DNA of 64,000 bases from positions 3,162,001-3,226,000 of the forward strand of contig NZ_CP062159.1 of NCBI RefSeq assembly GCF_014844035.1, given 5' to 3'. The notes beneath the pieces are model-generated. The model did not search any database and had not been told where the DNA came from. It saw only the letters and a program-made list of their open reading frames with translations. Shown piece after piece: positions 10,453 to 28,645 of this stretch; positions within the stretch are counted from its first letter, which is position 1, and each line of letters opens with the position of its first letter. Both the position numbers and the translations under genes were made by a program. The DNA comes from Flavobacterium sp. MDT1-60 (GTDB lineage: Bacteria; Bacteroidota; Bacteroidia; Flavobacteriales; Flavobacteriaceae).

Positions 10453-11241
10453 TTATTTAATTGGAATCATCTTCAATAAATCGGTCATAGTATTTGGTAT
10501 GTCATACATTTCCAGATTATTAGATAATGATGACAAACCTTCAAAAGTTATTGCACCCAAATAGTAATCCGAAAGGTCAAAACTATACACCTGCCAGTTT
10601 AGAGTATTTTTTATTAGAGTGAAGTCTACGCTATGGAGTCCATCTAAACATGGAATATATTTAAAATCTTCATCAATTCCTTTTCCTAATGCTTTTACAA
10701 AAGATTCTTTGCGCGTCCATAAACTGTAAAAAGTTTTTTTTTTGTCAGCAGCATTTTGAATCGTTAACCTTTCGTTTTCATCAAAAATATCAGGAAGAAG
10801 GTTTGTGAATTTAAAATCTTCAGATAGGTATTCAATATCTATTCCTACCTTTTTACGTGAAATTGCAATTGTTGCAAAGTTTTCAGAATGTGAAATATTG
10901 AAATGTAGCCAAGGATGAGAAGCTAAATATGGTTTTTTATTAAAATCATAATCAAGGTAAATATTTTTTACAGCTAATTTAGTATACGCTCCTAAAACAA
11001 GTTTTAAAATCGACCTGTATATAATGAATCGGTTTCTGTCTATTTCTTTGTAAAAGCGCTGTGCTTTTTTTATTTCTATAGAATTAAGAAACTTATACAA
11101 ATCAGATTTTAAATCAATAAAGTCAGGCAAATAAATATTGTAAATGATTATATCATTAGTATTTAAAGAGTATTCCTTACCGGAGAATAGCTGAACGCTC
11201 TTGATATTTGAAAAAGAAATATAGAGTCTAGATGTCTTCAT
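10453..11241 (-). CDS. 4'-phosphopantetheinyl transferase (Sfp superfamily)
   Basis: 262 residues, typical of Sfp-type enzymes. Hallmark motifs are VGIDIEYL (Mg-binding Asp135 and Glu137) and WTRKESFVKALGKG (Trp175 to Lys region, Glu179), plus FNISHSE at 114-120. It transfers the phosphopantetheine arm of CoA to the carrier-domain serines. Its start overlaps the 3' end of the NRPS gene by 14 bp on the same strand, so translation is likely coupled and its substrates are the three carrier domains of the two upstream megasynthases. It is the last gene of the cluster. Confidence 0.93.
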   Translation of the reverse strand: MKTSRLYISFSNIKSVQLFSGKEYSLNTNDIIIYNIYLPDFIDLKSDLYKFLNSIEIKKAQRFYKEIDRNRFIIYRSILKLVLGAYTKLAVKNIYLDYDFNKKPYLASHPWLHFNISHSENFATIAISRKKVGIDIEYLSEDFKFTNLLPDIFDENERLTIQNAADKKKTFYSLWTRKESFVKALGKGIDEDFKYIPCLDGLHSVDFTLIKNTLNWQVYSFDLSDYYLGAITFEGLSSLSNNLEMYDIPNTMTDLLKMIPIK

Positions 11242-14200
11242 GTTTTTTATCTAAAATATCCTGAATTAGTCGTGCTAATACTCTATCATTTGGTGGCGAC
11301 ACAATATCTAAATGATTACCGGGGATATTATGAATTGCCACACCCTCTAATGCTGCTTTTTTCCATCCTAAATGCGTAGGGTCCAATTTATAGTTAATAT
11401 CATCTTTTGATCGAAATAAATCTACTTCAAAGTTTTGTGGTTTAAGGTGATAGCGGTCAACAATTTTTTTAACCAAACTATCAGCTTCTATGAATTGTTC
11501 AAGGGCCAAAGCTTCTTGTTCACTCATCGTGTCGTTCTTCCCAAAATGTCTTTTTAGTATATAATCTTTTTTTCCATTAATGCGCATTTTAAAAGCCTTC
11601 CAGCTCAATAACATTTCTTTTAAAAAATCTAATCTTCTGTGCGTAATATCAAAGTATCTGACTAATTGTTTTCGTCTATAACTTCCATAATAATAAGAAG
11701 AATCAACATAAGAGTCAAGTAGTGCGGTCAAGGTTACTTTTTTCCCTTGTTTTTTTAATTGACGTGTCATTTCGAAGACAACAATACCACCAAAAGAAAA
11801 ACCTGCTAAGGCGTAAGGTCCCTTTGGGTTTACTTTTACGATGGCATTTATGTAATGTGCTGCCATAGCTTCAATTGATTCATACCATCCGTCAAAGCCT
11901 TTTGGTTTTGTGCCTTGAATACCATAAATAGGTTGATCCTCATCAAAGTGTTTACTTAAATTAATAAAGTTTAAAACATTAAGCCCTGCTCCGTGCACGA
12001 TAAAAAGCGGTACTTTGTTTCCATCAGGTTTTATTGGAACTAAGCACTCCGCATAAATTTCGGTTCCCGTGTTTAATAGCTTAGCAAATTTTTCTACTGT
12101 TGAATATTTAAATAAAGCAGACAACGGAATTCGTTTACCAGTATGTTTCTCTATTTCAATCATAACTTTTACTCCCTTGATTGAATGCCCGCCCATCTCG
12201 AAGAAATCACTAAAAATATCTATATTTTGTATATTTAAGCTTTCTTTCCAAATAGTCGCAACTATATTTTCTTCTTCCGTTCGGGGAGCAGTATATTTAA
12301 CTTTTTTATTTACTTTATAATTTGATAATGCTTTACGGTCTATCTTGCCGTTAAGCGTTGTTGGCATTTTCTCTAATAAATTAAAGTTATGTGGAATTAA
12401 TTGTGGCGGTAATTTTGAAGCCAAAGCTTCGCGCCATATAGGTATTTGATTTTCATTACTTTCTACGCTGGAATGAGGTACAATATGAGCTATAAGAAAA
12501 TTTTCATCAGCTAGTACAACGGCATATTTTATACCATCAAGTAATAGTAGTGCTTGCTCTACTTCACCTGGTTCGATACGATGTCCTCTAATTTTAACTT
12601 GTTGATCAACCCGTCCTAAACATTCTATTTCGTTGTTTGGAAGTATTTTTCCTAAATCACCTGTACGATAAATTATATCTTTTTTATTTGCAGAAAATCT
12701 ATTTTTAATAAATTTTTCAGATGTAAGTTCTGGTCTCTTCCAGTAGCCTTTTGCAACACCGTCGCCACCAATTACAATTTCACCAATCTTTCCTGGTGCG
12801 GCAAGTTGTCCTTGCTCATCAATGATGTAAAATTGTGTATTTGCAATAGGTTTCCCAATAGTTATTACTGTATCATCAGAATTTATTTGTTTTATGGATG
12901 ACCAAATGGTGGTTTCTGTTGGACCATAGACATTCCACAGCGTATTACACTTACTTACAAGTTCTTTGGCAAGATCTTCGGGCATAGCTTCGCCACCACA
13001 TAAAGCTTTAAGTGGTAATGATTCAGACCAACCGGAGTCTAAAAGCATTGACCATGTTGTAGGAGTCGCTTGCAGAAAATTAATATTTTCCTTTTTTATT
13101 AACTCAAGTAAAAGTCTTCCATCTCTAGCTGTTTCATGGTCTGCTATTATTAATGTTGCGCCTTTAATAAGTGGTAAATACAATTCTAAACCAGCAATAT
13201 CAAAGGAGATCGTCGTTATAGATAATACCCTGTCATTTTCGTTAATTCCAGGTTCTAAAGCCATACTCAAAAGAAAGTTAACCAAATTTTTATGGGTGAT
13301 AGGAACTCCTTTTGGATTGCCAGTTGATCCGGATGTATACAATATATAAGCAACATTCTCTGAACTAACGGTAAAAGCAAGCGGTAAGGTAGAATATTGG
13401 TTTAATAAATCGATTGCATCTTCTATAAAAATAGTATGTGACCATGATGGTAAGGATGCAAATAAAGTTTTACTGGTTATTAGCATTTTTGCATCAGAAT
13501 CATTAAGCATAAAATCTAAACGTTCTTTTGGATATTCGGGATCTAATGGTATGTAGGCTGCACCACATTGCAAAATGGCTAATAAAGTGTAAAGCAGTTC
13601 CGGGCTTCGTGAAAAAGAAACAGCAATAAAATCACCAGATTGTACTCCTTGTGCTTTTAAATAATGTGCTAATTGGTTCACTTTTTCATGTAACCCGACG
13701 TAAGTAGTGTTTGAATCGTGAAATTCTAAAGCTATATTTTGAGGTGTAATTTCTGCTTGTTTTCTAAGTAACTCTGTCAAAGTCACATTTGGATATGGCA
13801 TTTCAGTACTATTTAAAATGTCGTAATCTGCCAAATAGTTACCTCCTAGTAAATCTGATAATGGATTGTCTGAACCAGATATTAGTTTATCCATTATTTC
13901 TTCAAATGAAACCATCATTTGATTTATTGTTTCCGGCTTGAATAGTGTAGTATTATAGGACCATTGAAATATAGGTCCATTTTTAGATTTAAAAATATGA
14001 AGTTGAATTTCGAAGGTTCCGTATTCTCTCGGATTCATGTTTAATTTGTGAGAAAGACCCGTAAATGAAAATTCATTTTCGATAGTCCGATTTAAATCAA
14101 CTGTTAGTATAACCGGAACTAAAGGAATTCTTGAAGGGTCTCTGGCAATTGCAAAACTCTTAAGAAGATGACCAAAACTAACTTGCTGATGTTCATATGC

Positions 14201-15247
14201 ATCAAACAACTGAGAATTTCTTTGCTTAACATAGTCTAAAAAACTAATTTCAGGACTAATTTTACTGCGTAGAGGAAGTAAGTTAACACAATCTCCTATC
14301 AGTTGTCTCATATCGTACAATGTATTTCCTGATGAAGGAAATCCAACTACCAAATCATATTGACCGGTAAGTTTACATAAAAAGACTTCAAATGCTGCTA
14401 GTATTGTAGTTACCAAACTACAACCGGCATTTATTCCTATATTTTTTAGTGAGGTTATAATTTTATCATCTAAAGGAAAATCCAGGCGATCACTATTATA
14501 TGTTCGCAATACAGGCCTTACGTAATCTAGTGGCAATTCAATTGTTGGAACTGATTCTTTATAGATATTTAGCCAAAAACATTCTAAATCTTGATATTCA
14601 GTACTTTCCATAAAAGAATTTATTTTTTCGGCAAATTCACTGAAACGTTCCGGAGCTGGAAGTTCTGGTACTGCATTTTCAACATACGCTGAATAAATTG
14701 TGCCAAGTTCTTCTAATATTATGTCAATACTGAGTCCGTCACCTATAATATGATGAATTGTCAAAGTGGCTAAGTATTCAAAATCATCGATTTTAACTAA
14801 GCTAACCCTGAACAGAGGACCGTTGACAAGGTCAAACAGAGCATTAACTTCTTCCTTAACTAAACTATCTATAGATTTTTCTTTTTCAGTAGCTGCCAGG
14901 TTAGAAAAATTATTATAAGAAATTTTGATATCACCTTCAGTATAAATACACATAAAGTGCCCGTCTGGACTAAACGAAGCTCTCAGTCCTTCATGACGTT
15001 GTACTAAAGTTTTTAGTGCTTGTTCAAACGTATCTATAACTAAATTACCCTTAAAATTAATCGAAACAGATAAGTTATATGCCTTATTTGCATCACTGCT
15101 TCCAAAAATACAATCTGACCATATTTCCTGTTGTGAATTTGTTGAATAGATTACTCTTTCAATTTCAGGTAAAAACGGATAAAATTGAATTTCATTTTCA
15201 GTTTGATTTTGATTTTGGGGTTGAGGTTTGTTTCTCATTACTATCAT
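11228..15247 (-). CDS. non-ribosomal peptide synthetase, C-A-T-TE termination module
   Basis: 1339 residues. Condensation domain about 30-470 with intact HHIIGDG near 165. Adenylation domain about 490-1000 (A3 YTSGSTGNPKG near 640, A8 YRTGDLGK near 860). Thiolation domain with GGHS near 1019. Thioesterase about 1070-1339 with GFSFGG near 1150 and a catalytic-type GNHLD near 1315. Hand alignment to the GrsA pocket gives D-I-L-Q-L-G-V-I-W, which matches glycine-type codes as I remember them. The C domain accepts the chain from the upstream PKS carrier. The TE releases it by hydrolysis or cyclisation. A downstream in-frame ATG at 15238 is a possible start. The gap to the upstream gene is 60 bp. 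Confidence 0.94.
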   Translation of the reverse strand: MIVMRNKPQPQNQNQTENEIQFYPFLPEIERVIYSTNSQQEIWSDCIFGSSDANKAYNLSVSINFKGNLVIDTFEQALKTLVQRHEGLRASFSPDGHFMCIYTEGDIKISYNNFSNLAATEKEKSIDSLVKEEVNALFDLVNGPLFRVSLVKIDDFEYLATLTIHHIIGDGLSIDIILEELGTIYSAYVENAVPELPAPERFSEFAEKINSFMESTEYQDLECFWLNIYKESVPTIELPLDYVRPVLRTYNSDRLDFPLDDKIITSLKNIGINAGCSLVTTILAAFEVFLCKLTGQYDLVVGFPSSGNTLYDMRQLIGDCVNLLPLRSKISPEISFLDYVKQRNSQLFDAYEHQQVSFGHLLKSFAIARDPSRIPLVPVILTVDLNRTIENEFSFTGLSHKLNMNPREYGTFEIQLHIFKSKNGPIFQWSYNTTLFKPETINQMMVSFEEIMDKLISGSDNPLSDLLGGNYLADYDILNSTEMPYPNVTLTELLRKQAEITPQNIALEFHDSNTTYVGLHEKVNQLAHYLKAQGVQSGDFIAVSFSRSPELLYTLLAILQCGAAYIPLDPEYPKERLDFMLNDSDAKMLITSKTLFASLPSWSHTIFIEDAIDLLNQYSTLPLAFTVSSENVAYILYTSGSTGNPKGVPITHKNLVNFLLSMALEPGINENDRVLSITTISFDIAGLELYLPLIKGATLIIADHETARDGRLLLELIKKENINFLQATPTTWSMLLDSGWSESLPLKALCGGEAMPEDLAKELVSKCNTLWNVYGPTETTIWSSIKQINSDDTVITIGKPIANTQFYIIDEQGQLAAPGKIGEIVIGGDGVAKGYWKRPELTSEKFIKNRFSANKKDIIYRTGDLGKILPNNEIECLGRVDQQVKIRGHRIEPGEVEQALLLLDGIKYAVVLADENFLIAHIVPHSSVESNENQIPIWREALASKLPPQLIPHNFNLLEKMPTTLNGKIDRKALSNYKVNKKVKYTAPRTEEENIVATIWKESLNIQNIDIFSDFFEMGGHSIKGVKVMIEIEKHTGKRIPLSALFKYSTVEKFAKLLNTGTEIYAECLVPIKPDGNKVPLFIVHGAGLNVLNFINLSKHFDEDQPIYGIQGTKPKGFDGWYESIEAMAAHYINAIVKVNPKGPYALAGFSFGGIVVFEMTRQLKKQGKKVTLTALLDSYVDSSYYYGSYRRKQLVRYFDITHRRLDFLKEMLLSWKAFKMRINGKKDYILKRHFGKNDTMSEQEALALEQFIEADSLVKKIVDRYHLKPQNFEVDLFRSKDDINYKLDPTHLGWKKAALEGVAIHNIPGNHLDIVSPPNDRVLARLIQDILDKKHEDI

Positions 15248-15307
15248 AATTCTATTTTTAAATGAAATTGTACAGTTCTTAAATTGACAATTTAAAATAA
15301 TTAATTA

Positions 15308-18300
15308 TTAATCATGGTTACCGCATTCTAATAGCTTCATCTTTTTGAATTCTCCTTTTTTATTAGAATCTTCAGTAAACCACGCTGGATTTCCGTTTTC
15401 ATCGCGTCCCAATTTGTAGCCTTTTAGAGGAGGGTCATTAGCCATTATGATATACTTTTTATCTACGATTTTATTCTCCAAAAATTGCTGATCATTAATC
15501 TTTAAAATATCAAAAGGCTTTTCTGGTTGCAGGGTTTCATTTGTTTCAATGCGCTTTTCAGGATTAAAAGTAACGGCATCTAAATGTTCTGTTTTCAGAC
15601 TTCCAACAGAAGATTTTCCATTTAATGGAGTATTTTGATGATTTTGTAATTGATCTATCTTTTGGCTCAAAAGCTGAATTTGCTGAACAATTTGTTCTAA
15701 TGAAATTTGATTGTGATTGGAAGATACCTGAGGTTCATTTATTAAAATATTAGATTCAATGGTTTCATTAGGAGTTATTTGAATTTCTTTTTTAAGATCA
15801 TTAAGATTCTCTTCAGGAAGGTTAAGGTCTATATAATCAGCTAAAAGAGATGGTGTTGAAAAAGCTTCGTTGAGTTGTCTAAAAGTAATTGGCAAGTCAA
15901 ACTCTTTTTTCAATTTCCCTGACAATTGGGTAAGAGATAATGAATCAAGTCCAAGTTCTAAGAAAGTATTTGATGCTGCATCAAATTCATAACTTATTCC
16001 AGATGCGTTTTTAATAATTTCTGAAATCTTAATAAGTATTGAATCTTTTCTTGAATTGTTTGTTTTGGTAGCACTATTGGTTTCTATTGAAGCTATATTT
16101 GTATTCAAAACTGCCGGTATATCAGCAACTATGGTTTTTTGAACTACTGCTGTTTCAATTGTATTTAAAGGTTCAATCCAACAAGGCTTGCGATCAAAAA
16201 CATAACTTGGTAATTTGATTTTTTGTCTTTGTTGTCGATCGTAAAAAGCATGCCAGTCAGGGTTTATACCTCTAATCCATAAGTCGCCTAAAGCGTTTAA
16301 CAAAGTAGAATATTCATTTTCTTGTTCATCCTTAGGAAAAGTTAGACTAGGAAAAGCTGGTATTACTTTACCATTAGCTTGTTGACGCGCTAAAGTAATT
16401 AGGGTTTGTCCCGGGCCAACTTCTAATAATATATAATCATCTAAATCAAATGCGGTATCCATTGCATCTGCAAATCTTACCGTATTTTTTAAATGGCTGA
16501 CCCAATACATCGGACTTGTGGCTTCTGTATCTGTAAGCCAGGTTCCTGTTACTGTTGAAATAATAGGTAAGCGAGGGATGTTTAATTTTATTTTTTCTAC
16601 TTCATTTTTAAAAGATTCTAAAATTGGATCCATCATAAAAGAGTGAAAGGCATGGCTGGTAAGGAGTATTTTGTTGGGAATATCTTGTGAATCAAGTTTA
16701 TTATTAAAATTTGCAATATCTTCTTTTGTGCCTGAAACCACACAAAACTGATTTGAATTTATTGCTGCAACCGAAAGAGTATCTGGAAGCAGTTCGTTTA
16801 ATTTCTCAATAGGTACGCGCACAGCCAGCATAGATCCGCCAGGCAGTTCGCTTATTAATTTCCCTCTCACAGCAACGATGTGCAATGCGTCTTTTAAATT
16901 CATGATTCCGGCCAAATGGGCTGCAGCAAATTCACCAATGCTATGACCACAAAGAAAAGTTGGTTTTATTCCCCAACTCATCCATAATTGAGACAATGCA
17001 TATTCGGTAACGAATAAAGCAGGTTGCGTTAAGCGAGTATCTTTCAAAAGTTCTTCTGCTTCACCTGAGTTAATTTCAGGATAGATTATATGACGAATAT
17101 CTAAATTTAAATCTTCCATCAATAGTTCAGCGCATTTATCTATCGCATTGCGATATACTTCTTCGTTATCGTAAAATGTTTTACCCATTTGCAAAAACTG
17201 TGCTCCTTGTCCAGGGAATAAGAATCCCATTTCGCCAGGTACACTTTTTAGTAGTGCAGATTTAATACTTTTTGTTTTGAGAGAAATTAATTTTTCAGCA
17301 GCATCACTTGCAGTATTAGCTATTAAAAAGCTTCTGTGGTTAAAGTCTTCCCGAGTTACGTTCAATGAATAAGCTATATCTGCTAAATCTTTGTTTTTTG
17401 ATTTGTCAATAAAGTTGCCCAATTCATTTTCATAACTCAACAAACTGTTTTGACTTTTAGCAGACCACATGAGTATTTGAAGTGGTCGTGTAGTTGAAGG
17501 TGGTAAAGGTTTCATCTCATATTCTTCGACAATAACATGTACATTGGTGCTTCCTATACCAAATGAGCTTACACCGGCTCTTCTTTTGCCATCTGCTTTC
17601 CAGTCAATCAATTTGTTATTGATGTAAAAAGGGCTATTATCTAATTCTATATTTGGATTTGGTTTATTGAAATTAACCATTGGAGGTATTTGCTTGTGAC
17701 GCATTGCTAATAATGTTTTTATTAGACCTGCGGCGCCTGCGGCTGCAGTGGTATGCCCCATATTACTTTTTATGGATCCCAAAGCACAATAACCATTTTT
17801 TTCTTGTTTGCCATAAGCAATTTTAAGTCCTTCTATTTCTATTGGATCACCAATGGGAGTCGCAGTACCATGTGCTTCCATATAAGTAATGGTTGAAGGC
17901 GATATTTGAGCGTCATTAAATGCATTTATTATTGCTCCAGCCTGACCTTTAGGGCTAGGCGCCATAAAACTGCCTTTGTCTCCTCCGTCGTTATTTACAC
18001 CAACGCCTTTAATTACTCCGTAAATAATATCTCCGTCTTTTTCAGCTTCGTCCAATCTTTTAAGTAAAACGACTCCGGCACCATCACTAAAAACGGTGCC
18101 TTTTCCAGAAGCGTCAAAAGATCTGGTAGAACCATCTGGGCTTTTAATAAATCCATCATCATAAAGGTGACCGCTATTGATGGGTGAAGTTACGCTTGAA
18201 CCTCCCGCGAGAGCGATGTCACACATTCCGGTTCTTATTGCTTTTACCGCCTCAGCAACTGCTAATAACGAAGTAGAGCAGGCTGAATGTACACTAACAG

Positions 18301-20689
18301 AAGGGCCTTTTAAATTTAAATGATACGAAGTTCGGGGTGCAATAAAATCTTTTCCATTTACAGTATAGATCTGAAGTTCGCCTATTGAACTTTTTAGCTC
18401 TTTGTTTAAAAATATATTGTTTTCGTAGTAAGTATTAATTTCACTGCCGGAATATACTCCAATACTTCCTTTGTAATGTTTAGGGAGATGTCCTGATTGC
18501 TCTAATGCTTCAAATGAAATTTCTAAAAACACTCTTATTTGCGGATCCATAGCGGCCGCAAGTTGTGGGTTTAATCCAAAGAAATTGGCATCAAATGTTT
18601 TGGCAGAAGGCAAAATTCCTCGTGCACCTATATAAAGAGGGTCTTTACGAAGACTTTCAGGTAAACTAATATCTAATTCGTCTTTTGTAAAATAAGATAT
18701 TGTTTCTTTTCCATTTTTTAAGTTCTCCCATAATTCCTCCATTGAGTCAGAACCAGGGAATCTTGCAGCCATACCAATTACGGCAATATCTGCAGAAACG
18801 TTTTTGTTTTTAGTCTCTTTAAATGCAAACAAATCTCCCTTATTTTTTTCTTCATTCTTATCCTCTCCTAAAAATGTAGAAAGCTCTCTAATTGTAGGGA
18901 AGATATAGACTTTTGAAACAGGTATTTCGATCGATAAACGTTGTCTCAATACCGAAGTAATTTTTTGTGCCAATACTGAACTTCCCCCAATATCAAAAAA
19001 ATCATCATCTATACCTATGCTTGGTATTTTTAATTCCTCACTCCAGATCTTTGCAATATCTTTTTCTAATTGTGTATTGGGTTTATTGAATAGAGGAGCA
19101 GAGTCAGGTCTGGTATATTCAGGAATTGGTAAATTCTTTTTATCAATTTTTCCATTTGGCGTTATTGGAAAATCCTCTACCCAAATATATTTTGATGGTA
19201 ATAATATTTCGGGTAAAATTTTTGAAAGTGCCTCATGAATTATTTTTTCATCTTGTAGTGGTTCACCAGATTTAAAATAAGCCACAAGTTTATCTTCATT
19301 TCCATAATAATTGCTCACTATGACTGCTGACTGTTTTATTCCCGGAAAACTATTTAAGGCGGTTTCAATTTCACCTAATTCAATACGATGACCTCTAATT
19401 TTTACTTGATGATCTATACGTCCCAAACATTGAAATTCTCCATTTGGCAATAATTTTCCCAAGTCTCCAGTGCGATAAAGAATAGAATTCGGTTCTGTCG
19501 AAAATGAATCTGGAATAAATTTTTCAGCTGTAAGTTCTGGACGTTTCCAATAACCTTGAGCAACACCATCTCCACCAATAACTATTTCTCCAATTGTTCC
19601 GGGAGCAACGGCTTGCCCTTGCTCATCTAATAAGTAAATTTGTGTGTTTGCAATAGGTTTTCCAATTGTAATTAATTCATCTTCGGCATGAATTTGTTTT
19701 ATAGCTGACCATATTGTAGTTTCTGTTGGGCCATACATATTCCAAAGGGAATCACATCTTGCAGTTAGCTGACGTGCCAGATTTAAAGGCATAGCTTCAC
19801 CGCCACAAAGGGCTTTTAACCTCAGCGGGGTTTCCCAACCAGAATCAAGCAGCAATTGCCAGGTAGTTGGTGTAGCCTGCAGTATAGTAATTTCTTTTTT
19901 TTGCAAAAGCTGAAGTAAAAGCTGTCCATCACGAGTAGTCTCGTAATCAGCAAAAACTACCGTAGCACCCTTAATTAATGGTAGAAATAATTCGAGACCT
20001 GCAATATCAAAGGAAATTGTCGTAATTGACAGTAATTTGTCCTCAACATCTATACCTGGCTCAATCGCCATACTGACTAAGAAGTTTACTAAATTTTTAT
20101 GAGTTACAGTAACTCCTTTGGGCTTTCCGGTAGACCCGGAAGTATACATCATATAAGCAACAGCTTCGTGAGAAACAGTAACTGAAACAGGTGAAATAGG
20201 ATATTTGTCAAGTGTAGACAATGCGTCTTCGACCAATATTGTTTTTGAATAAATTGGCAATGAAGCTACAAGTGATTTTGTGGTTAGCAAAAAACTTGCC
20301 TCAGAATCTTCGAGCATAAACTCTAAACGTGCAATTGGAAATTTTGGATCTAATGGTAAATATGATGCACCGCATTGTAAAATGGCAAAAAGAGCAATAA
20401 TTAATTTAGGACTTCGCTCCATAGAAATAGCAACTATTTGGTCAGAAGATAAACCTTGAGACAGAAAATAATTAGCCATTTGATTTGTCTTTTTTGACAA
20501 TTCTTCATAAGTAAGTTTTTCATATTCAAATTCAAGAGCTATTGAATTAGGGAAAATTGCAGCTTGCTCTGCAAAAAGGTCATGGAGCGTACTTGTGGGA
20601 TACGTCATTTTAGTCCAACTTATCTTGTTGTCTAAATTATTTTTGTTAGGTCTTTTCATTTTAATGCTATTAAAATTAAAGTTGAGCAA
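15308..20689 (-). CDS. hybrid NRPS-PKS, A-T-KS-AT-ACP loading and extension protein
   Basis: 1793 residues. There is no condensation domain: it begins with an adenylation domain (about 30-530, A3 near 180), so it loads the starter. T domain GGSS near 567. Ketosynthase about 632-1065 with VHSACSTSLLA near 802, EAHGTATPIGDP near 938 and KSNMGH near 975. Acyltransferase about 1155-1480 with GHSIGEFA near 1246 and HAFHS near 1347, the malonyl-CoA pattern. Second carrier with LGLDSLS near 1581. No KR, DH or ER segment lies between AT and ACP, so the beta-keto group stays. The A-pocket reads D-I-L-Q-L-G-M-I-W, glycine-like. The last 150 residues are a low-complexity linker ending in LGRDENGNPAWF (about 1760). 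Alternative starts are at 20659 and 20608. Confidence 0.94.
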   Translation of the reverse strand: MLNFNFNSIKMKRPNKNNLDNKISWTKMTYPTSTLHDLFAEQAAIFPNSIALEFEYEKLTYEELSKKTNQMANYFLSQGLSSDQIVAISMERSPKLIIALFAILQCGASYLPLDPKFPIARLEFMLEDSEASFLLTTKSLVASLPIYSKTILVEDALSTLDKYPISPVSVTVSHEAVAYMMYTSGSTGKPKGVTVTHKNLVNFLVSMAIEPGIDVEDKLLSITTISFDIAGLELFLPLIKGATVVFADYETTRDGQLLLQLLQKKEITILQATPTTWQLLLDSGWETPLRLKALCGGEAMPLNLARQLTARCDSLWNMYGPTETTIWSAIKQIHAEDELITIGKPIANTQIYLLDEQGQAVAPGTIGEIVIGGDGVAQGYWKRPELTAEKFIPDSFSTEPNSILYRTGDLGKLLPNGEFQCLGRIDHQVKIRGHRIELGEIETALNSFPGIKQSAVIVSNYYGNEDKLVAYFKSGEPLQDEKIIHEALSKILPEILLPSKYIWVEDFPITPNGKIDKKNLPIPEYTRPDSAPLFNKPNTQLEKDIAKIWSEELKIPSIGIDDDFFDIGGSSVLAQKITSVLRQRLSIEIPVSKVYIFPTIRELSTFLGEDKNEEKNKGDLFAFKETKNKNVSADIAVIGMAARFPGSDSMEELWENLKNGKETISYFTKDELDISLPESLRKDPLYIGARGILPSAKTFDANFFGLNPQLAAAMDPQIRVFLEISFEALEQSGHLPKHYKGSIGVYSGSEINTYYENNIFLNKELKSSIGELQIYTVNGKDFIAPRTSYHLNLKGPSVSVHSACSTSLLAVAEAVKAIRTGMCDIALAGGSSVTSPINSGHLYDDGFIKSPDGSTRSFDASGKGTVFSDGAGVVLLKRLDEAEKDGDIIYGVIKGVGVNNDGGDKGSFMAPSPKGQAGAIINAFNDAQISPSTITYMEAHGTATPIGDPIEIEGLKIAYGKQEKNGYCALGSIKSNMGHTTAAAGAAGLIKTLLAMRHKQIPPMVNFNKPNPNIELDNSPFYINNKLIDWKADGKRRAGVSSFGIGSTNVHVIVEEYEMKPLPPSTTRPLQILMWSAKSQNSLLSYENELGNFIDKSKNKDLADIAYSLNVTREDFNHRSFLIANTASDAAEKLISLKTKSIKSALLKSVPGEMGFLFPGQGAQFLQMGKTFYDNEEVYRNAIDKCAELLMEDLNLDIRHIIYPEINSGEAEELLKDTRLTQPALFVTEYALSQLWMSWGIKPTFLCGHSIGEFAAAHLAGIMNLKDALHIVAVRGKLISELPGGSMLAVRVPIEKLNELLPDTLSVAAINSNQFCVVSGTKEDIANFNNKLDSQDIPNKILLTSHAFHSFMMDPILESFKNEVEKIKLNIPRLPIISTVTGTWLTDTEATSPMYWVSHLKNTVRFADAMDTAFDLDDYILLEVGPGQTLITLARQQANGKVIPAFPSLTFPKDEQENEYSTLLNALGDLWIRGINPDWHAFYDRQQRQKIKLPSYVFDRKPCWIEPLNTIETAVVQKTIVADIPAVLNTNIASIETNSATKTNNSRKDSILIKISEIIKNASGISYEFDAASNTFLELGLDSLSLTQLSGKLKKEFDLPITFRQLNEAFSTPSLLADYIDLNLPEENLNDLKKEIQITPNETIESNILINEPQVSSNHNQISLEQIVQQIQLLSQKIDQLQNHQNTPLNGKSSVGSLKTEHLDAVTFNPEKRIETNETLQPEKPFDILKINDQQFLENKIVDKKYIIMANDPPLKGYKLGRDENGNPAWFTEDSNKKGEFKKMKLLECGNHD

Positions 20690-21498: not shown

Positions 21499-22017
21499 TT
21501 GAAGTATCTAAATTTAAAAATTATTAATCTGCTCATAATTATGCTGTTGTTTTTTCCTTTTAAAGGGAATAGCCAAAATACACAAGATATTATGGAAACC
21601 ATAATTACATCTGGTAGCAATGCAACAGGAAGTTCTGGTTCAGTAACATATTCAATTGGTCAGGTATTCTATACTTATATTGGATTACAGACAGTTTATA
21701 ATGTAGAACAGGGTATACAACACCAGGAAAAAGATGAAAATCTGGGTACACCAGAAATTGAAAAACCTACAACAGAAATATTCGTTTTCCCAAATCCAAC
21801 GGCAGATTTTGTTAATCTAAGTATGAAAGGAGATGAGCTGGAAAGTGCAAATCGATCCTATCGTCTTTATGACTTACAAGGCAGGCTTTTGAAACAAAAT
21901 ATAATTACTCAAACTGAAACCCAGGTTAGCTTAAATAATTTTAGTTCATCCCTTTATATACTTACGGTATATGTGGATAACAAACTTTATAAATCTTTTA
22001 AAATATTAAAAAAATAA
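21499..22017 (+). CDS. secreted protein with T9SS type A C-terminal sorting domain
   Basis: 172 residues from a TTG start. This start is chosen because it gives a complete signal peptide (LKIINLLIIMLLFFPF then GNSQ), whereas the next ATG (21541) leaves too short a one. After a short serine/glycine-rich segment (about 30-75), the C-terminal 80 residues form a type IX secretion CTD: FVFPNPTADFVNLS, LYDLQGRLLK and the terminal LYKSFKILKK. Such domains direct export through the T9SS and attachment or release at the cell surface. The remaining mature part is small, with no catalytic motif seen. First gene of a tight three-gene operon (4 bp to the next). Confidence 0.8.
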   Translation: MKYLNLKIINLLIIMLLFFPFKGNSQNTQDIMETIITSGSNATGSSGSVTYSIGQVFYTYIGLQTVYNVEQGIQHQEKDENLGTPEIEKPTTEIFVFPNPTADFVNLSMKGDELESANRSYRLYDLQGRLLKQNIITQTETQVSLNNFSSSLYILTVYVDNKLYKSFKILKK

Positions 22018-22021: not shown

Positions 22022-22759
22022 ATGAAAATTGTACTTACGATACTTTTATTTGTGACCTTTACGTTTACGGCATTTGCTCAATCACCAGAAAAAATGAGTT
22101 ATCAGGCAATTATTCGCTCACAAGATAATAATCTGATCATGAATTCGAGAATTAGCCTTAAAGTTATTATACATCAAGGTACTGTTAACGGAACAAGTGT
22201 ATATCTGGAAACTCATTCTCCTACTACAAATAACAATGGTTTAGTTTCTCTTGAAATTGGAACTGGAACGGCTTCGATAGGTAATTTTAGTCAGATAGCC
22301 TGGGATAAAGGTCCTTATTTTATAGAAACGCAAGTTGATGTAAATGGTGGGGCTAATTACAACATTACGGGAGTTACACAGCTTTTGAGTGTGCCTTATG
22401 CTTTACATGCAAAAACAGCTGACAGATTAATAGGAGGCATAACTGTTCCAATCACTAAAGCTACAGTCATTTCGTTTACCTCTTCAAGAAACATTGCTGT
22501 TACAGATGTAAATAATACAATAGAATGTACAGCATCGGCCACATTAACATTAACCGTTGATTTTAGTAGTATGCTAGTGGGTGAAACTATTAATTTAGAA
22601 GCTCATAACGGTGCTGTGCTGACAATACAAGCCCCTTCGGGTGTATCAATTAACTACAATGCAAATGGTAGTGCAAAATTTACCAGTGTTGCTGGAAACG
22701 TAAGGTTTGGTTTTCTTAGAAAAACAGGCGCAAATTCCTATATTATATCTGGACAATGA
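22022..22759 (+). CDS. secreted Bacteroidota surface protein of unknown function
   Basis: 245 residues with a signal peptide (cleaved after FAFAQ-type sequence, residues 15-20). The N-terminal half has the recurrent Bacteroidota pattern MSYQAIIRSQDNNLI, then a VYLETHS / LVSLEIGTG / WDKGPYFIETQVD series and LLSVPYALHAKTAD, seen in many secreted proteins that precede tail-fibre-like or collagen-like regions. The second half (about 140-245) is beta-rich without a family I recognise. It overlaps the next gene by 4 bp (ATGA), suggesting translational coupling. I infer a surface-associated structural or adhesive role; no enzymatic motif is visible. Confidence 0.65.
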   Translation: MKIVLTILLFVTFTFTAFAQSPEKMSYQAIIRSQDNNLIMNSRISLKVIIHQGTVNGTSVYLETHSPTTNNNGLVSLEIGTGTASIGNFSQIAWDKGPYFIETQVDVNGGANYNITGVTQLLSVPYALHAKTADRLIGGITVPITKATVISFTSSRNIAVTDVNNTIECTASATLTLTVDFSSMLVGETINLEAHNGAVLTIQAPSGVSINYNANGSAKFTSVAGNVRFGFLRKTGANSYIISGQ

Positions 22760-24936
22760 AACATTTAATATTTTTTTTACTCTTTTCAACTATAGTTTTT
22801 TCACAAAACTATCATTATGCTATTGAAGATGCTCCGGTAAAAGCTCCAGAAATACCAGTAGGAGTCAATAATCAATTAGAAGAAATTAAATATTTTGAGG
22901 CTTATTTGCTACCAATTGCGCAAAAAGCGAGTCTTCAGGCTGCTTTAGATTTGCATGGTTCTGTACGATTAGAAAAAGGAGATTATTCAGGAGTAGATAT
23001 TGTTATGAAAAGTAATCAGAGACTATATGGATATCCATCATTAACCAAAGTATCTAATATTACCATAACAGCAGGAAGTACAGGAGTGGTTTTAGAAAAC
23101 TTACTCCCTCAAGATAAAACGATAACGCTTCAGGCAGGAGGAGTAATTTCTAATTGTACTTTTAAATCCATAAAGTGGGCAACCTTAAAGGCGACAAATG
23201 CAACGTTTACAAATAATACCTTTATAAATTATGGTGGTAATATTTTAATTGATTGTAGTCAGTCTGGTTATTTTAGAAATAATAAATTTATAAAACACCA
23301 ATCAGGAGGCTTAACGACGGTTTTGACTATGAAAGGAAATACCGCAACTCCTAGTTATGGTAACGTGAATTTGCATACTAATTTTCTAACACCTCACGGA
23401 GATACGAGCGAACTAGATAATTTAGTATCGGCTACTTTTGTTGGTATTGATGCAGAAGGCTGGAATCTTACTGGAGATGGAACCAAGGCTATGTTTAAGG
23501 CTAGTAACATGGGCAATGTTAAAATGACAGATTTAGGAGGTGGTAACTCATATTCTGCGGTTCGAACTGGAGCTTATGACATCGATGCTGCTAATGTATC
23601 TATACTTAATAAAAAACTTTTTACAGAATTTGATGTAATATCACCCAGAACTAACATGATAATGATAGCTGCTTTAGGGGGATATAAAAGAGGAAGCGGA
23701 ACAGTTACCGGATATGATCTCTGGGGAAATTTAGATAATACCAATTCTCTAAAATATAATAATGTTGAACAAACCACTGCTATAACTAATACAGCAATAG
23801 TTTCAAATCTTAGCGCTTCTATTTTAGGAAATCAATATACGCCCTGGAGCCGACCAACATGGGAGACATTACCGGATCCAACAGGTGCAAATTGGAGATC
23901 TGACAGAGTAGGTAAACCAGATAGTACAACTTATATTCAGAACTTAATAAATACAAATGGAGTTGCAGAACTTCCAGAAGGTGTCTTTTATATTAGTTCT
24001 ACTTTAAAAGTTCCTCTTGACAGAGCACATGGAATTATGGGGAAAGGTACAGGAAAAACCTCCATAGTAGGTTTGAAAGATGATTTTCCTTTAATAACGC
24101 TTACGGGTGGTCAGGATGACAATTTTGTATTGGCACATTTAACACTGCAAGGCGGTAATACAGGTGTTTATTCATCACAAAACTTTGGTACACAACACAT
24201 GAGTTTTGTATGGTTAAAATATGTAGTGTTTAGAGATCAAAATTATGGCTTTCAGTTAGAGAAAATGATGGGCTTTGATAATAATTTCTTTGATAATATT
24301 TCTTTTGTAAATTGTAATAAAGGATTTTTTCAGGACCCTCTTGTAAACGGAGATTCTGATCATTCCAGCTTTGTTGATAAAACAATGTTTTACAGAAGTC
24401 AGTTTATAAATTGTAATACAGCGGTTTCTATGTTAGCAACAAGGGCAGACAATTTAAATGCCTGGGTAGATTGTAAATTTAGTGGAGGACAAACCGCCCT
24501 TAGCTTAGGTGGAAATAATTATCCAATAGCTGCCAATTGCGATTTTACCGGCTTTACAGGAAAGCAAGTTATAAGTAGTGGAGATATCTCTTTATATAAT
24601 TCTAATTTTTACAGTAATAGTACTACAGTTTCAACTATTAAATCAATCAATTCATATATTGAAGGATGTAATTTTTCAGATGGAACAACTTTATTTTCAT
24701 CTGTTATATACAATCCTGTAAATGCTTATATAGTAAACTCTACTGTATCGGGTACTGTAGCTTCTTTAGTAATAGATGGAGATTGGAACAGCAAATATTC
24801 TGGAGTATTTATGAATAGTAATTTTGTATCAAGCCCCACACTTAGCAAGTTGTTAGTAAATGTAAAAGAAGGTACAATAACGGTAATTATAAATACAGCA
24901 TCTAATCCTTATCCTCAGCTGTTAGTAACGCGATAA
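22756..24936 (+). CDS. secreted right-handed beta-helix (pectin lyase-fold) protein
   Basis: 726 residues with a signal peptide (MKHLIFFLLFSTIVFSQ). Two stretches of parallel beta-helix rungs are apparent: about 60-340 and about 385-720. The second opens with a GKPDSTTYIQNLINTNG-type segment typical of pectate-lyase superfamily N-termini, then ELPEGVFYIS and GIMGKGTGKTSI. Repeated N-rich turns (NNFFDN, NCNKGFF, NCNTAVS) fit Asn ladders. No unambiguous lyase or hydrolase catalytic triad was found, so polysaccharide binding or cleavage is only suggested. There is no T9SS CTD. It ends the operon and is followed by a hairpin and U-run. Confidence 0.75.
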   Translation: MKHLIFFLLFSTIVFSQNYHYAIEDAPVKAPEIPVGVNNQLEEIKYFEAYLLPIAQKASLQAALDLHGSVRLEKGDYSGVDIVMKSNQRLYGYPSLTKVSNITITAGSTGVVLENLLPQDKTITLQAGGVISNCTFKSIKWATLKATNATFTNNTFINYGGNILIDCSQSGYFRNNKFIKHQSGGLTTVLTMKGNTATPSYGNVNLHTNFLTPHGDTSELDNLVSATFVGIDAEGWNLTGDGTKAMFKASNMGNVKMTDLGGGNSYSAVRTGAYDIDAANVSILNKKLFTEFDVISPRTNMIMIAALGGYKRGSGTVTGYDLWGNLDNTNSLKYNNVEQTTAITNTAIVSNLSASILGNQYTPWSRPTWETLPDPTGANWRSDRVGKPDSTTYIQNLINTNGVAELPEGVFYISSTLKVPLDRAHGIMGKGTGKTSIVGLKDDFPLITLTGGQDDNFVLAHLTLQGGNTGVYSSQNFGTQHMSFVWLKYVVFRDQNYGFQLEKMMGFDNNFFDNISFVNCNKGFFQDPLVNGDSDHSSFVDKTMFYRSQFINCNTAVSMLATRADNLNAWVDCKFSGGQTALSLGGNNYPIAANCDFTGFTGKQVISSGDISLYNSNFYSNSTTVSTIKSINSYIEGCNFSDGTTLFSSVIYNPVNAYIVNSTVSGTVASLVIDGDWNSKYSGVFMNSNFVSSPTLSKLLVNVKEGTITVIINTASNPYPQLLVTR

Positions 24937-26150: not shown

Positions 26151-26615
26151 TTACTTTTTTACTTTTAAAACATATCCCAAAGATTCCAGAATTAATACAT
26201 AATGCGTTTTTGTGATGTCCTTGACAACAGCATTATGATCACAAAATGGACCGGAATTCAAATGTATTTTATCTCCAATTTGATACTGCATAACCGATAT
26301 TTCTTTCGCAGTATCTCCACTTTTAAGCCATTCTTTTATAGTCTCAATTTCCTGATCTTTTACAACAGCATGTTTGCCTAGCCAAAATAAATACCTTACT
26401 ACACCAGGTGAATTAAAAACCAAGTTTCTATCTTTTTCTGCCAATTGTACAAATATATAATGATCAAATAATGGGGATTCGACCTTTATTTTTCTATCAG
26501 ATCTTTGTGTGGTTTTTTTTATCAATGGGCAATAACAATTTATATTAAACTTAGTTAATTGTTCTGCGGCTCTTTTTTCCCATTTGGGTTTAGTGTATAC
26601 TACATACCATTTCAT
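26151..26615 (-). CDS. UpxY-like NusG-family transcription antiterminator
   Basis: 154 residues. The N-terminal NGN domain starts WYVVYTKPKWEKRAAEQL, continues with CYCPLIKKTT and DHYIFVQL, and has the GVVRYLFWLG strand typical of NusG paralogues. A short KOW-like C-terminal segment (YQIGDKIHL, then AVVKDITKTHYVLIL) completes it. In Bacteroides, UpxY proteins load onto RNA polymerase in the leader of their own capsule operon to prevent early termination. Here the gene points away from the exopolysaccharide genes, whereas most upxY genes lead the operon. It probably acts on the leader next to it. Confidence 0.85.
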   Translation of the reverse strand: MKWYVVYTKPKWEKRAAEQLTKFNINCYCPLIKKTTQRSDRKIKVESPLFDHYIFVQLAEKDRNLVFNSPGVVRYLFWLGKHAVVKDQEIETIKEWLKSGDTAKEISVMQYQIGDKIHLNSGPFCDHNAVVKDITKTHYVLILESLGYVLKVKK

Positions 26616-27219
26616 AGTCCTAATTATTTATTGTTTCAAAATACATTATGATTTAAATTGTGATTTACTCTTTTATATTTACTTCACTAATTTTTTTAAG
26701 AATAATAGCTTTACTTTAATTTTTCGCTACAAAGAAATATCCTCCAAAATCTAAATAAACAAGAGGGTTTATAGCTTTTTTTATTAAGAATCAGGGTACC
26801 TGTTTCTAGTATTAATTACATTGTGAATTTAATTCCAAGAATGTTAAGAGTTTATATATTTGATATCATTTTTTCCTTAGTTAGGACATTTAGCAACCAA
26901 AATGTAGTTTTTACTCTAGGATATTATTATAATTTTAACATAAATTAACATTGTTGGTAATGCCAATAAAATTGATTTTAATTTCTTTTTTCATAAATCT
27001 GAATTTGAAATCTTTTTATACTTATTAGGAACAATAATTTTAATTTTTTTTCACCATCTTTTTTTCTTTTTTGGATAGTTAAATTGTAGCTATTCACGGG
27101 GAACCCCTTTTCAATTCTTAAAAAAATAGCATTAAAAACCAGTAAAATGGTTAATGATGTATTTCGAAGATAATATCCATATTAGCAAACTTACTTTTAA
27201 CTTAAAAAACATTAAGCAG
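26616..27219 (+). promoter_or_regulatory. 604-bp divergent region and long leader of the exopolysaccharide operon
   Basis: No gene is seen. The length fits a leader that needs antitermination. Contents: two TTAACAT repeats 10 bp apart (26935-26941, 26945-26951); a pyrimidine-rich stretch around 27040-27075; and a short GC-rich element GGGGAACCCC followed by TTTT (27098-27111), the only GC-rich spot in the region, as a candidate pause or recruitment site. The promoter itself was not identified. Confidence 0.4.
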
Positions 27220-27654
27220 ATGAAAATTGGAATAACTTTTAGTGCTTTTGATTTGTTACATGCAGGGCACGTTAAAATGCTTGAAGAAGCAAAACTACAT
27301 TGCGATTATTTAATTGTTGGCTTACAGACTGATCCAACCTTGGATCGCCCAACAAAAAATAAACCAACCCAAACTGTTGTCGAACGTTACATACAATTAA
27401 AAGCATGTAAGTTTGTTGACGAAATTGTTCCTTATGCCACCGAACAGGATTTAGAAGATATTTTGAAGGCCTTTACTATTAATGTACGCATTTTAGGAGA
27501 TGAATATAAAGAGAGAGATTTTACTGGCAGAAGTTATTGTGAAGAAAAAGGAATTGAGTTGTACTTTAATATAAGAGATCATCGTTTTTCAAGTACCAAT
27601 TTGCGCCATGAAGTGTATCAAAAAGAAATTTTAACAAACAGTAATGGCAATTAG
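27220..27654 (+). CDS. cytidylyltransferase-like protein (glycerol-3-phosphate cytidylyltransferase family)
   Basis: 144 residues with the nucleotidyltransferase HxGH motif in FDLLHAGHVKMLEEA and the C-terminal RFSSTNLR motif, matching TagD-type enzymes that form CDP-alcohols from CTP. The frame is open to 27154, but Met at 27220 starts exactly at the family N-terminus (MKIGITFSAFDLLHAGH). It heads the exopolysaccharide operon and overlaps manC by 11 bp. No CDP-glycerol polymerase is visible in the cluster, so the activated alcohol and its acceptor are unknown. Confidence 0.82.
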   Translation: MKIGITFSAFDLLHAGHVKMLEEAKLHCDYLIVGLQTDPTLDRPTKNKPTQTVVERYIQLKACKFVDEIVPYATEQDLEDILKAFTINVRILGDEYKERDFTGRSYCEEKGIELYFNIRDHRFSSTNLRHEVYQKEILTNSNGN

Positions 27655-28645
27655 CACTTTTACTCATGTAATTCTAACAGGCGGGATTGGCAGCAGATTA
27701 TGGCCTCTATCCAGAAAAACACTTCCTAAGCAATATCTGGAGCTTTTTGACGGAGAGTCACTTTTTGAAAAAACAGTGAACCGTAATCAAATTACTTCCA
27801 ATAAAACGATAGTGGTTGGCAATATAGAAAATTACAAAATGAGTAATGCTATTATGTCTAAACTCATTAAGTCTTTTACTCATATTGTGGAAGCTGTACC
27901 TCGCAATACGGCCGCAGCAATTGCATTTGCTGCATTTGCATCAAAACCGGAAGATATTTTACTGATTACACCATCAGATCATATTATAGAAGGTAGCGAG
28001 TTATATGACATTGCTTTGCAAAAAGCAATTGTATTGGCTAATCAGGATTATCTGGTTACGTTTGGTATAAAACCTACTAAACCGGAAACGGGTTATGGTT
28101 ATATTGAATTCGAGAATGAAAATGTAATTGCATTTCATGAAAAACCAGATTTCGAAACGGCAGCAGTTTATCTTGAAAACGGAAATTATTTCTGGAACAG
28201 CGGACTTTTTTGTTTTAAAGCAGAAAAGTTTTTAACAGAACTTGAAAAGCAGGAACCTGAAGTTTATTGGGCCTCAAAAGCAGTTTGGGAAGTAAATCAA
28301 AACGGCTTTCTGAATTATGAATTGTCTCTAAACATTCCTTCCATAAGTATTGATTATGCAGTTATGGAACGAAGCAAAGACATTAAAGTAGTTCCGGCTC
28401 ATTTTGAATGGTCTGATCTCGGTTCGTTCGAATCGGTTTATGATTATCTAGTGCAAAAAGGGCATCCAATTGACGAAAACAGGAATATTGCCATAGGAAC
28501 TTCCCTACATACTACTTTTATTGGTGTTAAAAATTGTATTTTAATTTACACCGCAGATGCCTTAATGGTTCTGCAAAAAGAAAATTCTCAAGAGGTAAAA
28601 CAAGTTTACCAACATTTAGAATCTATTGCTTCGCCATTATTATAA
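27644..28645 (+). CDS. manC: mannose-1-phosphate guanylyltransferase
   Basis: 333 residues. The nucleotidyl-transfer signature LTGGIGSRLWPLSRKTLPKQ is at residues 11-30, followed by TPSDHII, TKPETGYGYIE and FHEKPDFETA, which contact GTP, metal and mannose-1-phosphate. It makes GDP-mannose from GTP and mannose-1-phosphate. The length shows it is the single-domain form without the C-terminal phosphomannose isomerase module. It feeds gmd and fcl immediately downstream. Confidence 0.92.
   Translation: MAISTFTHVILTGGIGSRLWPLSRKTLPKQYLELFDGESLFEKTVNRNQITSNKTIVVGNIENYKMSNAIMSKLIKSFTHIVEAVPRNTAAAIAFAAFASKPEDILLITPSDHIIEGSELYDIALQKAIVLANQDYLVTFGIKPTKPETGYGYIEFENENVIAFHEKPDFETAAVYLENGNYFWNSGLFCFKAEKFLTELEKQEPEVYWASKAVWEVNQNGFLNYELSLNIPSISIDYAVMERSKDIKVVPAHFEWSDLGSFESVYDYLVQKGHPIDENRNIAIGTSLHTTFIGVKNCILIYTADALMVLQKENSQEVKQVYQHLESIASPLL

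Follow-up and report, generated by a model that had tools for sequence, protein, structure and literature searches.

The window (the whole stretch of DNA analysed, 64,000 nucleotides) carries a two-module hybrid NRPS-PKS line, which confirms what a sequence-only reading of this DNA had observed. We propose that this line, which has no aminotransferase (AMT) domain, would release a ketone-bearing dipeptide-like acid by hydrolysis, and we give this proposal as a whole, read as it is from sequence, about an even chance of being correct. Three genes on the minus strand, identified by Pfam, make up the line: a hybrid PKS, an NRPS and an Sfp-type transferase. Their features are as follows (PKS residue numbers refer to the 1793-aa frame starting at 20689):

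15308..20659, minus strand: hybrid PKS gene, A-T-KS-AT-ACP with a C-terminal coiled coil and tail (Pfam, start analysis)
19130..20575, minus strand: loading A domain, code DILQLGMIWK, glycine type (Pfam, alignment)
18860..19072, minus strand: T (peptidyl carrier) domain, Ser571, motif FFDIGGSS (Pfam, residue check)
17504..18790, minus strand: KS domain, Cys804/His940/His979 (Pfam, residue check, dN/dS)
16382..17224, minus strand: AT domain, GHSIGE and HAFH (Pfam, residue check)
15770..16057, minus strand: ACP domain, Ser1583, borders approximate (Pfam PP-binding stretch, residue check)
15311..15769, minus strand: post-ACP coiled coil and GNPAWF tail (motif comparison with relatives)
11228..15247, minus strand: NRPS gene, C-A-T-TE (Pfam)
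13850..15148, minus strand: C domain, HHxxxDG intact (Pfam, residue check, C tree)
12320..13768, minus strand: A domain, code DILQLGVIWK, glycine type (Pfam, alignment)
12074..12262, minus strand: T domain, Ser1022 (Pfam, residue check)
11267..12010, minus strand: TE domain, Ser1151-Asp1178-His1312 (Pfam, residue check)
10453..11241, minus strand: Sfp/HetI-type 4′-phosphopantetheinyl transferase (Pfam ACPS)

The gene at 15308-20689 matched the Pfam models AMP-binding, PP-binding (two stretches), KS (N, C and KAsynt_C_assoc) and Acyl_transf_1, and the gene at 11228-15247 matched Condensation, AMP-binding, PP-binding and Thioesterase. The AMP-binding, KS, AT, Condensation and TE matches had E-values of at most 6e-21, those of the carrier domains at most 1e-11 and that of ACPS 3.4e-14; values this low exclude chance as the source of the domain calls. 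The A-T-KS-AT-ACP protein, the C-A-T-TE protein and the Sfp-type transferase claimed earlier were all borne out; together they form a hybrid line running from A-T through KS-AT-ACP to C-A-T-TE, with its catalytic residues and a 4′-phosphopantetheinyl transferase. Across the whole genome, the Condensation family matched once, in the NRPS gene itself. In the cluster genes Pfam detected no KR, DH, ER or AMT domain; the KR model gave zero matches, so the earlier statement that KR is absent stands. The cluster has no further gene beyond these three, in agreement with the claim that tailoring and transport genes are missing. No Rfam match was found in the window, and there was no plasmid match.

The PKS start had been placed at 20689, but the codon there is TTG. 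Translation probably begins instead at the ATG at 20659 (1783 aa), since all 23 main-group loci have Met at the aligned residue and 11 of them have no earlier in-frame start codon at all. At the other end of the protein, the coiled coil and GNPAWF tail (~150 aa) had been absent from the earlier description. The active residues of the AT are Ser1250 and His1349, and every checked catalytic residue of PKS and NRPS is intact in all 23 main-group loci. The dN/dS of the KS was 0.03-0.06 against six main-group loci and 0.081 against L049; against seven loci the TE gave 0.04-0.09 (KS 0.03-0.08). Strong purifying selection acts on both the KS and the TE. Set against the intact residues and low ratios, it is hardly credible that the line is decaying and makes no product, although two genomes of the same genus (G401 and G676) have no KS-bearing PKS at E 1e-100, one of them retaining a remnant.

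The A-domain codes, extracted by alignment with GrsA positions that we take to be valid anchors, read DILQLGMIWK in the PKS and DILQLGVIWK in the NRPS, the same glycine-type pockets, DILQLG(V/M)IW, that had been reported before. The GHSIGE and HAFH motifs attributed to the AT were likewise found in the translation, and presumably represent the malonyl pattern. PMC12283262 gives DILQLGMIWK as a signature of glycine activation; the PKS A domain carries exactly this published code, and the NRPS A domain differs from it at one position. The glycine-type codes, the malonyl-type AT and the lack of a KR therefore point, by collinearity, to a 4-amino-3-oxobutanoyl-glycine backbone, and the predicted Gly-(β-keto C2)-Gly chain is well supported. 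Collinearity thus upholds the earlier scheme of glycine loading, one extension to 4-amino-3-oxobutanoyl and amide linkage to a second glycine: the Gly-ketide-Gly backbone of that interpretation is kept, and the step from it to a tetramate is not.

We infer the substrates, the order of steps, the AMT activity of the relatives and the hydrolytic release. The A-T pair would load glycine, KS-AT-ACP would extend it once with malonyl-CoA to 4-amino-3-oxobutanoyl-ACP, and C-A-T would condense this chain with a second glycine. Release by the TE, most likely hydrolysis, would then give N-(4-amino-3-oxobutanoyl)glycine (C6H10N2O4, calculated [M+H]+ ~175.071); hydrolysis is taken as the default, the mode of the TE being unreadable from its sequence. 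Counting against this scheme, a free amine beside a β-ketoacyl thioester is chemically labile, and the ACP-bound chain could close on itself to a plain tetramic acid ahead of the C domain.

Beyond the window's close group, 23 of the 26 relatives counted have a class III AMT domain after the ACP (Aminotran_3, identified by Pfam in four and by BLAST in the others). In the one AMT compared with solved structures, that of L131, the closest was the MycA aminotransferase (E 2e-119; HemL, 6e-52). The ~400 extra residues of the longer relatives, considered as a possible KR, proved by Pfam to be Aminotran_3. A KS-AT tree, which was a quick tree with SH-aLRT as its sole support measure and from which L136 and L138 (both partial) and L072 were dropped, holds 23 rows with the AMT and 27 without; the label changes four times, and all outer rows of the family bear the AMT. 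No state was assigned to L125, which is cut by the end of its stretch. Three outgroup PKS rows (two from L068, one from L079) had no AMT match and were uncounted for AMT state, which implies that the AMT was gained before it was lost. The tree supports an AMT loss in the descent of the window's line, and the family as a whole has apparently lost the domain three or four times, of which L148, a locus showing recombination, may not be an independent case.

Membership of this PKS-AMT-NRPS family is thereby divided for the window PKS: its KS-AT descends from AMT-bearing ancestors (in the quick tree, with the three outgroup rows uncounted), and it has no class III aminotransferase fused after the ACP. 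Comparison with relatives by motif shows that both flanks of the missing domain, the coiled coil and the GNPAWF tail, are kept. In the ancestral line, a mycosubtilin-type aminotransferase after the ACP would have turned the β-ketone into a β-amine, and deletion of the domain would leave the ketone in place; as the window's line has no amination domain, a ketone is probably left in its small product. The family resembles the mycosubtilin/iturin-type PKS-AMT-NRPS hybrids (MycA) in the post-ACP aminotransferase of the relatives, L131's being closest to MycA, and in the flanks that the window gene retains. The window gene differs from them in lacking the AMT and in loading an amino acid via an A domain, whereas those hybrids load a fatty acid.

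Amination could instead be supplied in trans by a class III aminotransferase encoded elsewhere, yielding 3,4-diaminobutanoyl-glycine, the product to be expected of an AMT line that loads glycine, and the genome does hold five class III matches. The best of them, however, reaches 36% identity and E 4e-53, which is in the range of HemL enzymes and contrasts with the match of the L131 AMT to MycA. None of the five lies near the cluster, and the genome has no close AMT relative. We therefore regard amination in trans as very unlikely, and retain a line that leaves its ketone.

The loading A and C domains also now differ in type from those of the Flavobacterium lines that bear the AMT. In the C tree, from which L058/L059 and 14 main-group near-copies were left out, the window's C domain groups with those of DIFV-type NRPS genes, which lie downstream in tandem lines; the exception is L148, a DIFV-type NRPS that falls with the other group. 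The A and TE domains of the window NRPS, unlike its C domain, match the glycine module in trees and comparison (the A tree left out loci outside our own locus selection). A mixed origin of the NRPS is thus supported by the trees. Against five Flavobacterium AMT lines, the identity of the window TE was 66-80% in four and 41% in the fifth, and that of the C domain was 48-50% in all. This order was reversed in four loci from other genera (TE 39-44%, C 46-50%), so any argument from TE conservation rests on the nearer lines.

These comparisons bear on the Dieckmann release to a tetramate put forward in the sequence-only reading, which our analysis does not support, the TE having a Ser-Asp-His triad of the ordinary kind, just as its AMT-line relatives do. 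Such a closure, by the TE or by spontaneous chemistry, would give 3-glycyl-tetramic acid (C6H8N2O3, calculated [M+H]+ ~157.061). The predicted thioester is the right type of substrate, with the β-ketone, at domain level, on the chain entering the last module as in a tetramate synthase, and the repeated AMT losses leave exactly the ketone that closure needs. According to PMC10956176, Ser-type TE domains with Dieckmann activity exist, some C-terminal Ser-Asp-His domains being such cyclases. The tetramate synthases treated there (TrdC, NcmC, BpdE and the TE-domain cases) also resemble the window's line in passing a β-ketoacyl chain to C-A-T and in having an α/β-hydrolase release domain. Unlike them, the window's cluster has no stand-alone Cys-Asp-His cyclase, its TE nucleophile being Ser, and its type of TE is common to lines that should be incapable of closure: the same triad and motif occur in the TEs of lines expected to bear a β-amine, whose chains, if the AMT domain works, cannot undergo it. 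Moreover, relative to four of the five Flavobacterium AMT lines, though not to other genera, the TE has changed far less than the C domain. None of the 48 solved chains matching the TE is named a Dieckmann cyclase, in a structure set that may contain none. Dieckmann release thus appears unlikely to us.

Off the enzyme, the free α-aminoketone may react further, e.g., by dimerizing to a dihydropyrazine. α-Aminoketones dimerize readily, and such self-condensation could even account for the product itself, whether from released or enzyme-bound material, as a pyrazine or dihydropyrazine dimer or as a pyrrolidine-2,4-dione cut from the ACP. The amine would be free, with no C domain before the loading A and no other gene in the cluster. 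However, nothing in the sequence selects for a dimerization or cyclization of this kind, and early cyclization on the ACP would make the second module pointless, yet that module is under strong purifying selection. We consider this outcome rather improbable, and hydrolysis to the open-chain acid remains our preferred reading.

The literature searched, which took in few subscription papers, contained neither a characterised Flavobacterium product of Gly-ketide-Gly form nor a close match to a characterised cluster with a different product, in keeping with the earlier reading. Carrion et al. 2019 (Science) reportedly described an NRPS-PKS cluster of a disease-suppressive, root-associated Flavobacterium; this cluster is said to be BGC298, a name that appears in one review, others giving the cluster unnamed. 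By description it is likewise a Flavobacterium NRPS-PKS cluster, and may be related to the window's line.

The cluster is flanked by a divergent trio of genes and an exopolysaccharide locus:

21499..22017, plus strand: divergent gene 1, small secreted protein with a T9SS C-terminal sorting domain (PF18962; conserved neighbour)
22022..22759, plus strand: divergent gene 2, 245-aa protein without a Pfam match, N-terminus signal-like by eye (conserved neighbour)
22756..24936, plus strand: divergent gene 3, 726-aa protein without a Pfam match, N-terminus signal-like by eye (genus co-occurrence)
26151..50008, no strand assigned: exopolysaccharide locus adjoining the trio (Pfam and translations; conserved neighbour)

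In the exopolysaccharide locus, Pfam identified NusG-like, CTP_transf, Wza, Wzc, a sugar transferase and one glycosyltransferase, and the other sugar-nucleotide genes, a flippase and the other glycosyltransferases were named from translations. All 23 main-group loci have the trio next to the PKS, and the same exopolysaccharide locus lies beyond it in all 18 regions fetched; counts from one scan of the relatives' loci, which covered up to 80 loci, are to be read as "at least". Within the genus, 32 of 398 genomes have the NRPS, and 31 of those 32, but no other genome, have the 726-aa protein (window genome counted), a profile that is perfect except for one incomplete genome. In other genera, a Bac_transf gene lies no more than ~5 kb from the NRPS in 3 of 15 cases and within ~36 kb in 6 of 15. 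The 245-aa protein, also present at 61% in another genus (L124) and resembling what we take to be a common Bacteroidetes protein type, was dropped as a specific marker for these two reasons. For the 726-aa protein, no solved relative was found at E 1.

This co-occurrence, the constant neighbours and the Bac_transf genes near other-genus NRPSs would fit a product that serves the cell surface, for example as a signal or substituent linked with the exopolysaccharide and the secreted proteins, rather than a free antibiotic-like metabolite. Linkage and common descent could, however, explain most of this, and two of the three Bac_transf cases within ~5 kb share one genus. In L146, an AMT line, the stretch read after the trio showed none of the sugar-nucleotide genes of the window's locus. 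Among 397 genomes of the family, six from other genera encode the 726-aa protein; four of these have no NRPS match at E 1e-100, and of the other two, G189 has an NRPS match just 31% identical; all six regions contain genes similar to the window's exopolysaccharide genes. This weakens the case that the 726-aa protein strictly accompanies the NRPS. A TE, moreover, normally frees its product, and we find a surface role doubtful.

A broader combination of these threads is tentative, and in our view possible rather than probable: that an aminating Flavobacteriaceae line was repeatedly made ketone-leaving by clean AMT excision; that the window's group also acquired a new glycine-type loading A and an other-type C domain, becoming perhaps the smallest Gly-ketide-Gly synthase; and that its reactive product, either 3-glycyl-tetramate or an aminoketone that condenses with itself, works at the cell surface together with the trio and the exopolysaccharide locus.

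The family offers a compact case of natural module rewiring, in which the same line occurs with and without its aminotransferase, through three or four apparent losses and with the flanks kept; the other-type C domain of the window's ketone-leaving group is part of the same example. Because the line is so short, its whole reconstitution in vitro is possible. It is present in more than 20 Flavobacterium genomes, at a fixed site by the surface-protein genes and the exopolysaccharide locus, and given this constant position, deleting one gene could link its product to a phenotype at the surface or the root. If the line matches the published disease-suppression cluster, it would also help to name the compound behind the suppression.

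Three window genes on the same strand look like one operon, which is flanked by three divergent genes (the trio) and an exopolysaccharide locus:

10453-11241, minus strand: phosphopantetheinyl transferase gene, overlapping the end of the NRPS gene
11228-15247, minus strand: NRPS gene, 60 bases downstream of the PKS gene
15308-20659, minus strand: PKS hybrid gene
21499-24936, divergent from the PKS gene: trio, adjoining the PKS gene
22756-24936, plus strand: gene of a 726-aa protein
26151-50008: exopolysaccharide locus, beyond the trio

Pfam read the three operon genes as A-T-KS-AT-ACP, C-A-T-TE and ACPS, with no KR, DH, ER or aminotransferase domain among them, confirming the KR-less architecture with an Sfp-type transferase described in the sequence-only reading. 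The PKS start proposed there, 20689, is a TTG, and we moved it to the ATG at 20659, whose Met is aligned in all 23 Flavobacterium loci closest to the window (the main group). A search of the whole 5.56 Mb one-contig genome for the Condensation family gave a single match, the window NRPS.

Anchoring the extraction on the GrsA code positions, we obtained the ten-letter A codes DILQLGMIWK (PKS loading A) and DILQLGVIWK (NRPS A); the AT motifs of the window PKS we take to be of malonyl type. The loading code reads DILQLGM(I/V)WK in 22 of the 23 main-group loci, with L049 (DPFAIGLVAK) as the sole exception, and the second-module code is DILQLG-type in 23/23. A passage of PMC12283262 quotes DILQLGMIWK as a glycine signature. 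All 23 loci also keep the KS Cys-His-His, the AT Ser and His, the ACP Ser, both T serines, the C HHxxxDG and the TE Ser-Asp-His. When the window was compared with seven main-group loci, dN/dS was 0.03-0.08 for KS, 0.04-0.09 for TE and <0.32 for the other computable domains, except the post-ACP tail (0.21-0.46); the second T gave no computable value against L041. Judged from its intact catalytic residues and low dN/dS, the window assembly line is under maintenance.

Scanning one genome per species, we listed at least 79 loci, among which the three genes stand together in the 23 of the main group (L032-L052, L057, L060; PKS length 1761-1801 aa). PKSs are longer in many of the more distant relatives. 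Pfam scans of four such loci (L131, L142, L053, L061) each identified the added domain as Aminotran_3, a class III aminotransferase domain following the ACP (AMT); Pfam did not find it in the PKSs of L111, L116 and L148. Of the 26 counted rows that do not belong to the main group, 23 have AMT by BLAST with the L131 domain. Among solved structures, this domain is closest to the aminotransferase of the mycosubtilin synthase MycA (E 2.4e-119), with glutamate-1-semialdehyde aminomutase next (E 6e-52). The window genome's own class III aminotransferases give five far weaker matches to the AMT of its kin (best 36%, E 4e-53).

We infer the order of steps in the window line from collinearity: A-T would load glycine, which would be extended once, the beta-ketone would be neither reduced nor aminated, and the ketide chain would be joined to a second glycine and released by the TE. 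Free alpha-aminoketones are prone to dimerise. The earlier proposal of a Gly, one-extension, Gly backbone is supported; its tetramic acid is not, as the TE triad is common to lines whose chain should bear a beta-amine. Because the same kind of TE and triad serves those lines, hydrolysis would be the default release. Dieckmann closure by the TE is possible, in that PMC10956176 reports such activity for C-terminal Ser-Asp-His TE domains; the stand-alone Dieckmann cyclases described there use Cys, not Ser.

The relatives vary further. In five loci (L119, L122, L142, L145, L147), a Cupin_8/JmjC-type gene (Pfam match for L142, the other four 63-80% identical to it) lies between PKS and NRPS; all five have the loading code DVQFMAQVVK, which we read as Pro-like, and the residue loaded there may be hydroxylated by the hydroxylase-like product. 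Near the PKS in 10 of 24 loci compared there is a ~280-aa gene with weak methyltransferase matches; these ten loci (L113-L115, L117-L121, L123, L124) belong to other genera. Two or three tandem NRPS genes follow one PKS in L129, L131/L132, L133/L134, L138, L145, L148 and L049 (Flavobacterium). Since most of them end in their own TE (the 1053-aa one of L148 does not), the arrangement points to parallel end modules and not to a single line. In the ~870-aa proteins of L129 (A-T-TE by Pfam), L138 and L148, a Cys occupies the place of the TE nucleophile and an Asn that of the triad His. In genome G676, all that is left of the PKS is a 385-aa open frame (L140:9637-10794, plus strand) comprising the A-domain start and the GNPAWF tail, with NRPS and trio retained; in G401, no KS-bearing PKS was found at E 1e-100; and contigs C24 and C36 of G628 appear to carry two PKSs, one window-type (78% identical), the other having the Pro-like code.

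The whole trio adjoins the PKS in 23/23 main-group loci. One member has a T9SS sorting tail; the 245-aa and 726-aa proteins had no Pfam match, and the latter no PDB match. Some relatives of the 726-aa protein have added fibronectin type III domains, and the record of one is named pectate lyase superfamily. Among 398 genus genomes, 32 have the NRPS (E ≤ 1e-250) and 31, all within those 32, the 726-aa protein (E ≤ 1e-50), the remaining genome, G641, being 64% complete. In G401, 25 kb with an exopolysaccharide locus separate trio and NRPS, and in G628 the two are on separate contigs. The 726-aa protein also occurs in 6/397 other-genus genomes, and because four of these lack the NRPS, a strict functional tie is weakened.

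The exopolysaccharide locus was the same in 18/18 regions fetched, one an AMT line; its sugar-nucleotide genes are conserved across species (~79-99% identical) and its glycosyltransferases vary. Elsewhere in the genus it varies: its NusG-like gene is present in L131, L133, L140 and L143 and some sugar-nucleotide genes in L130 and L139, and L146 shows neither in the stretch read. Eighteen Flavobacterium genomes without the NRPS yielded eleven exopolysaccharide loci; the nine read held no trio and no NRPS, and the NusG-like protein of these loci is 56-64% identical to the window's. In other genera, a Bac_transf gene lies within about 5 kb of the NRPS in 3/15 and within about 36 kb in 6/15, against ~1.2/15 expected at 36 kb, given 4.2 matches in a genome of roughly 3.8 Mb; of the three nearest pairs, two come from the same genus. 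These patterns suggest a surface association of the assembly line, the chief caveat being linkage.

BGC298 is reportedly a disease-suppressive NRPS-PKS cluster, which may or may not correspond to the window operon. The name appears in one review; another describes an NRPS-PKS cluster found essential for fungal suppression in a synthetic community with Chitinophaga and Flavobacterium isolates.

A quick KS-AT tree with 54 rows (AMT in 23, absent in 27, 4 not counted) requires four changes of the AMT label, each forced by starred branches. As Saprospiraceae, Variovorax, Chitinophagaceae and most other-genus rows have it, AMT is ancestral within the family, and as three outgroup PKS rows, left out of the count, had no AMT match, it was gained before the family spread. 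AMT is missing from the window group with L049, from L148, from L111 and from L116. L148 combines a window-group-like A domain and tail with AMT-type KS, AT and C, and may be a recombinant, which would leave three losses. The window PKS keeps both AMT flanks, the coiled coil before it and the GNPAWF tail after it.

In the A tree, the loading A domains of the window group cluster with the one from L148 in a separate clade next to glycine-type NRPS A domains; those of AMT lines, except L121, lie elsewhere, as does that of L049. Identity to five AMT-bearing Flavobacterium lines is 67-76% for the window second A domain and 66-80% for the TE (but 41% in L147), yet just 48-50% for the C domain; four other-genus loci lack this contrast (TE 39-44%, C 46-50%). 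The low C identity is explained by the C tree, in which the window C joins (support 100) both L049 C domains and seven from DIFV-type NRPS genes, named for their A code and located in tandem lines downstream of the NRPS following the PKS, and stands apart from the C of the NRPS directly after the PKS in AMT lines; the L148 DIFV-type gene is an exception, placed in the other group. Taken together, the identities and C tree indicate a C domain of different type, which would act on a donor carrying the ketone, and a TE that has stayed similar to those of most AMT lines in Flavobacterium. By these comparisons, the window group is more than a deletion, its AMT loss going together with different loading A and C domains. 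What is new here is the relation of this line to an AMT-bearing family, and its different C domain.
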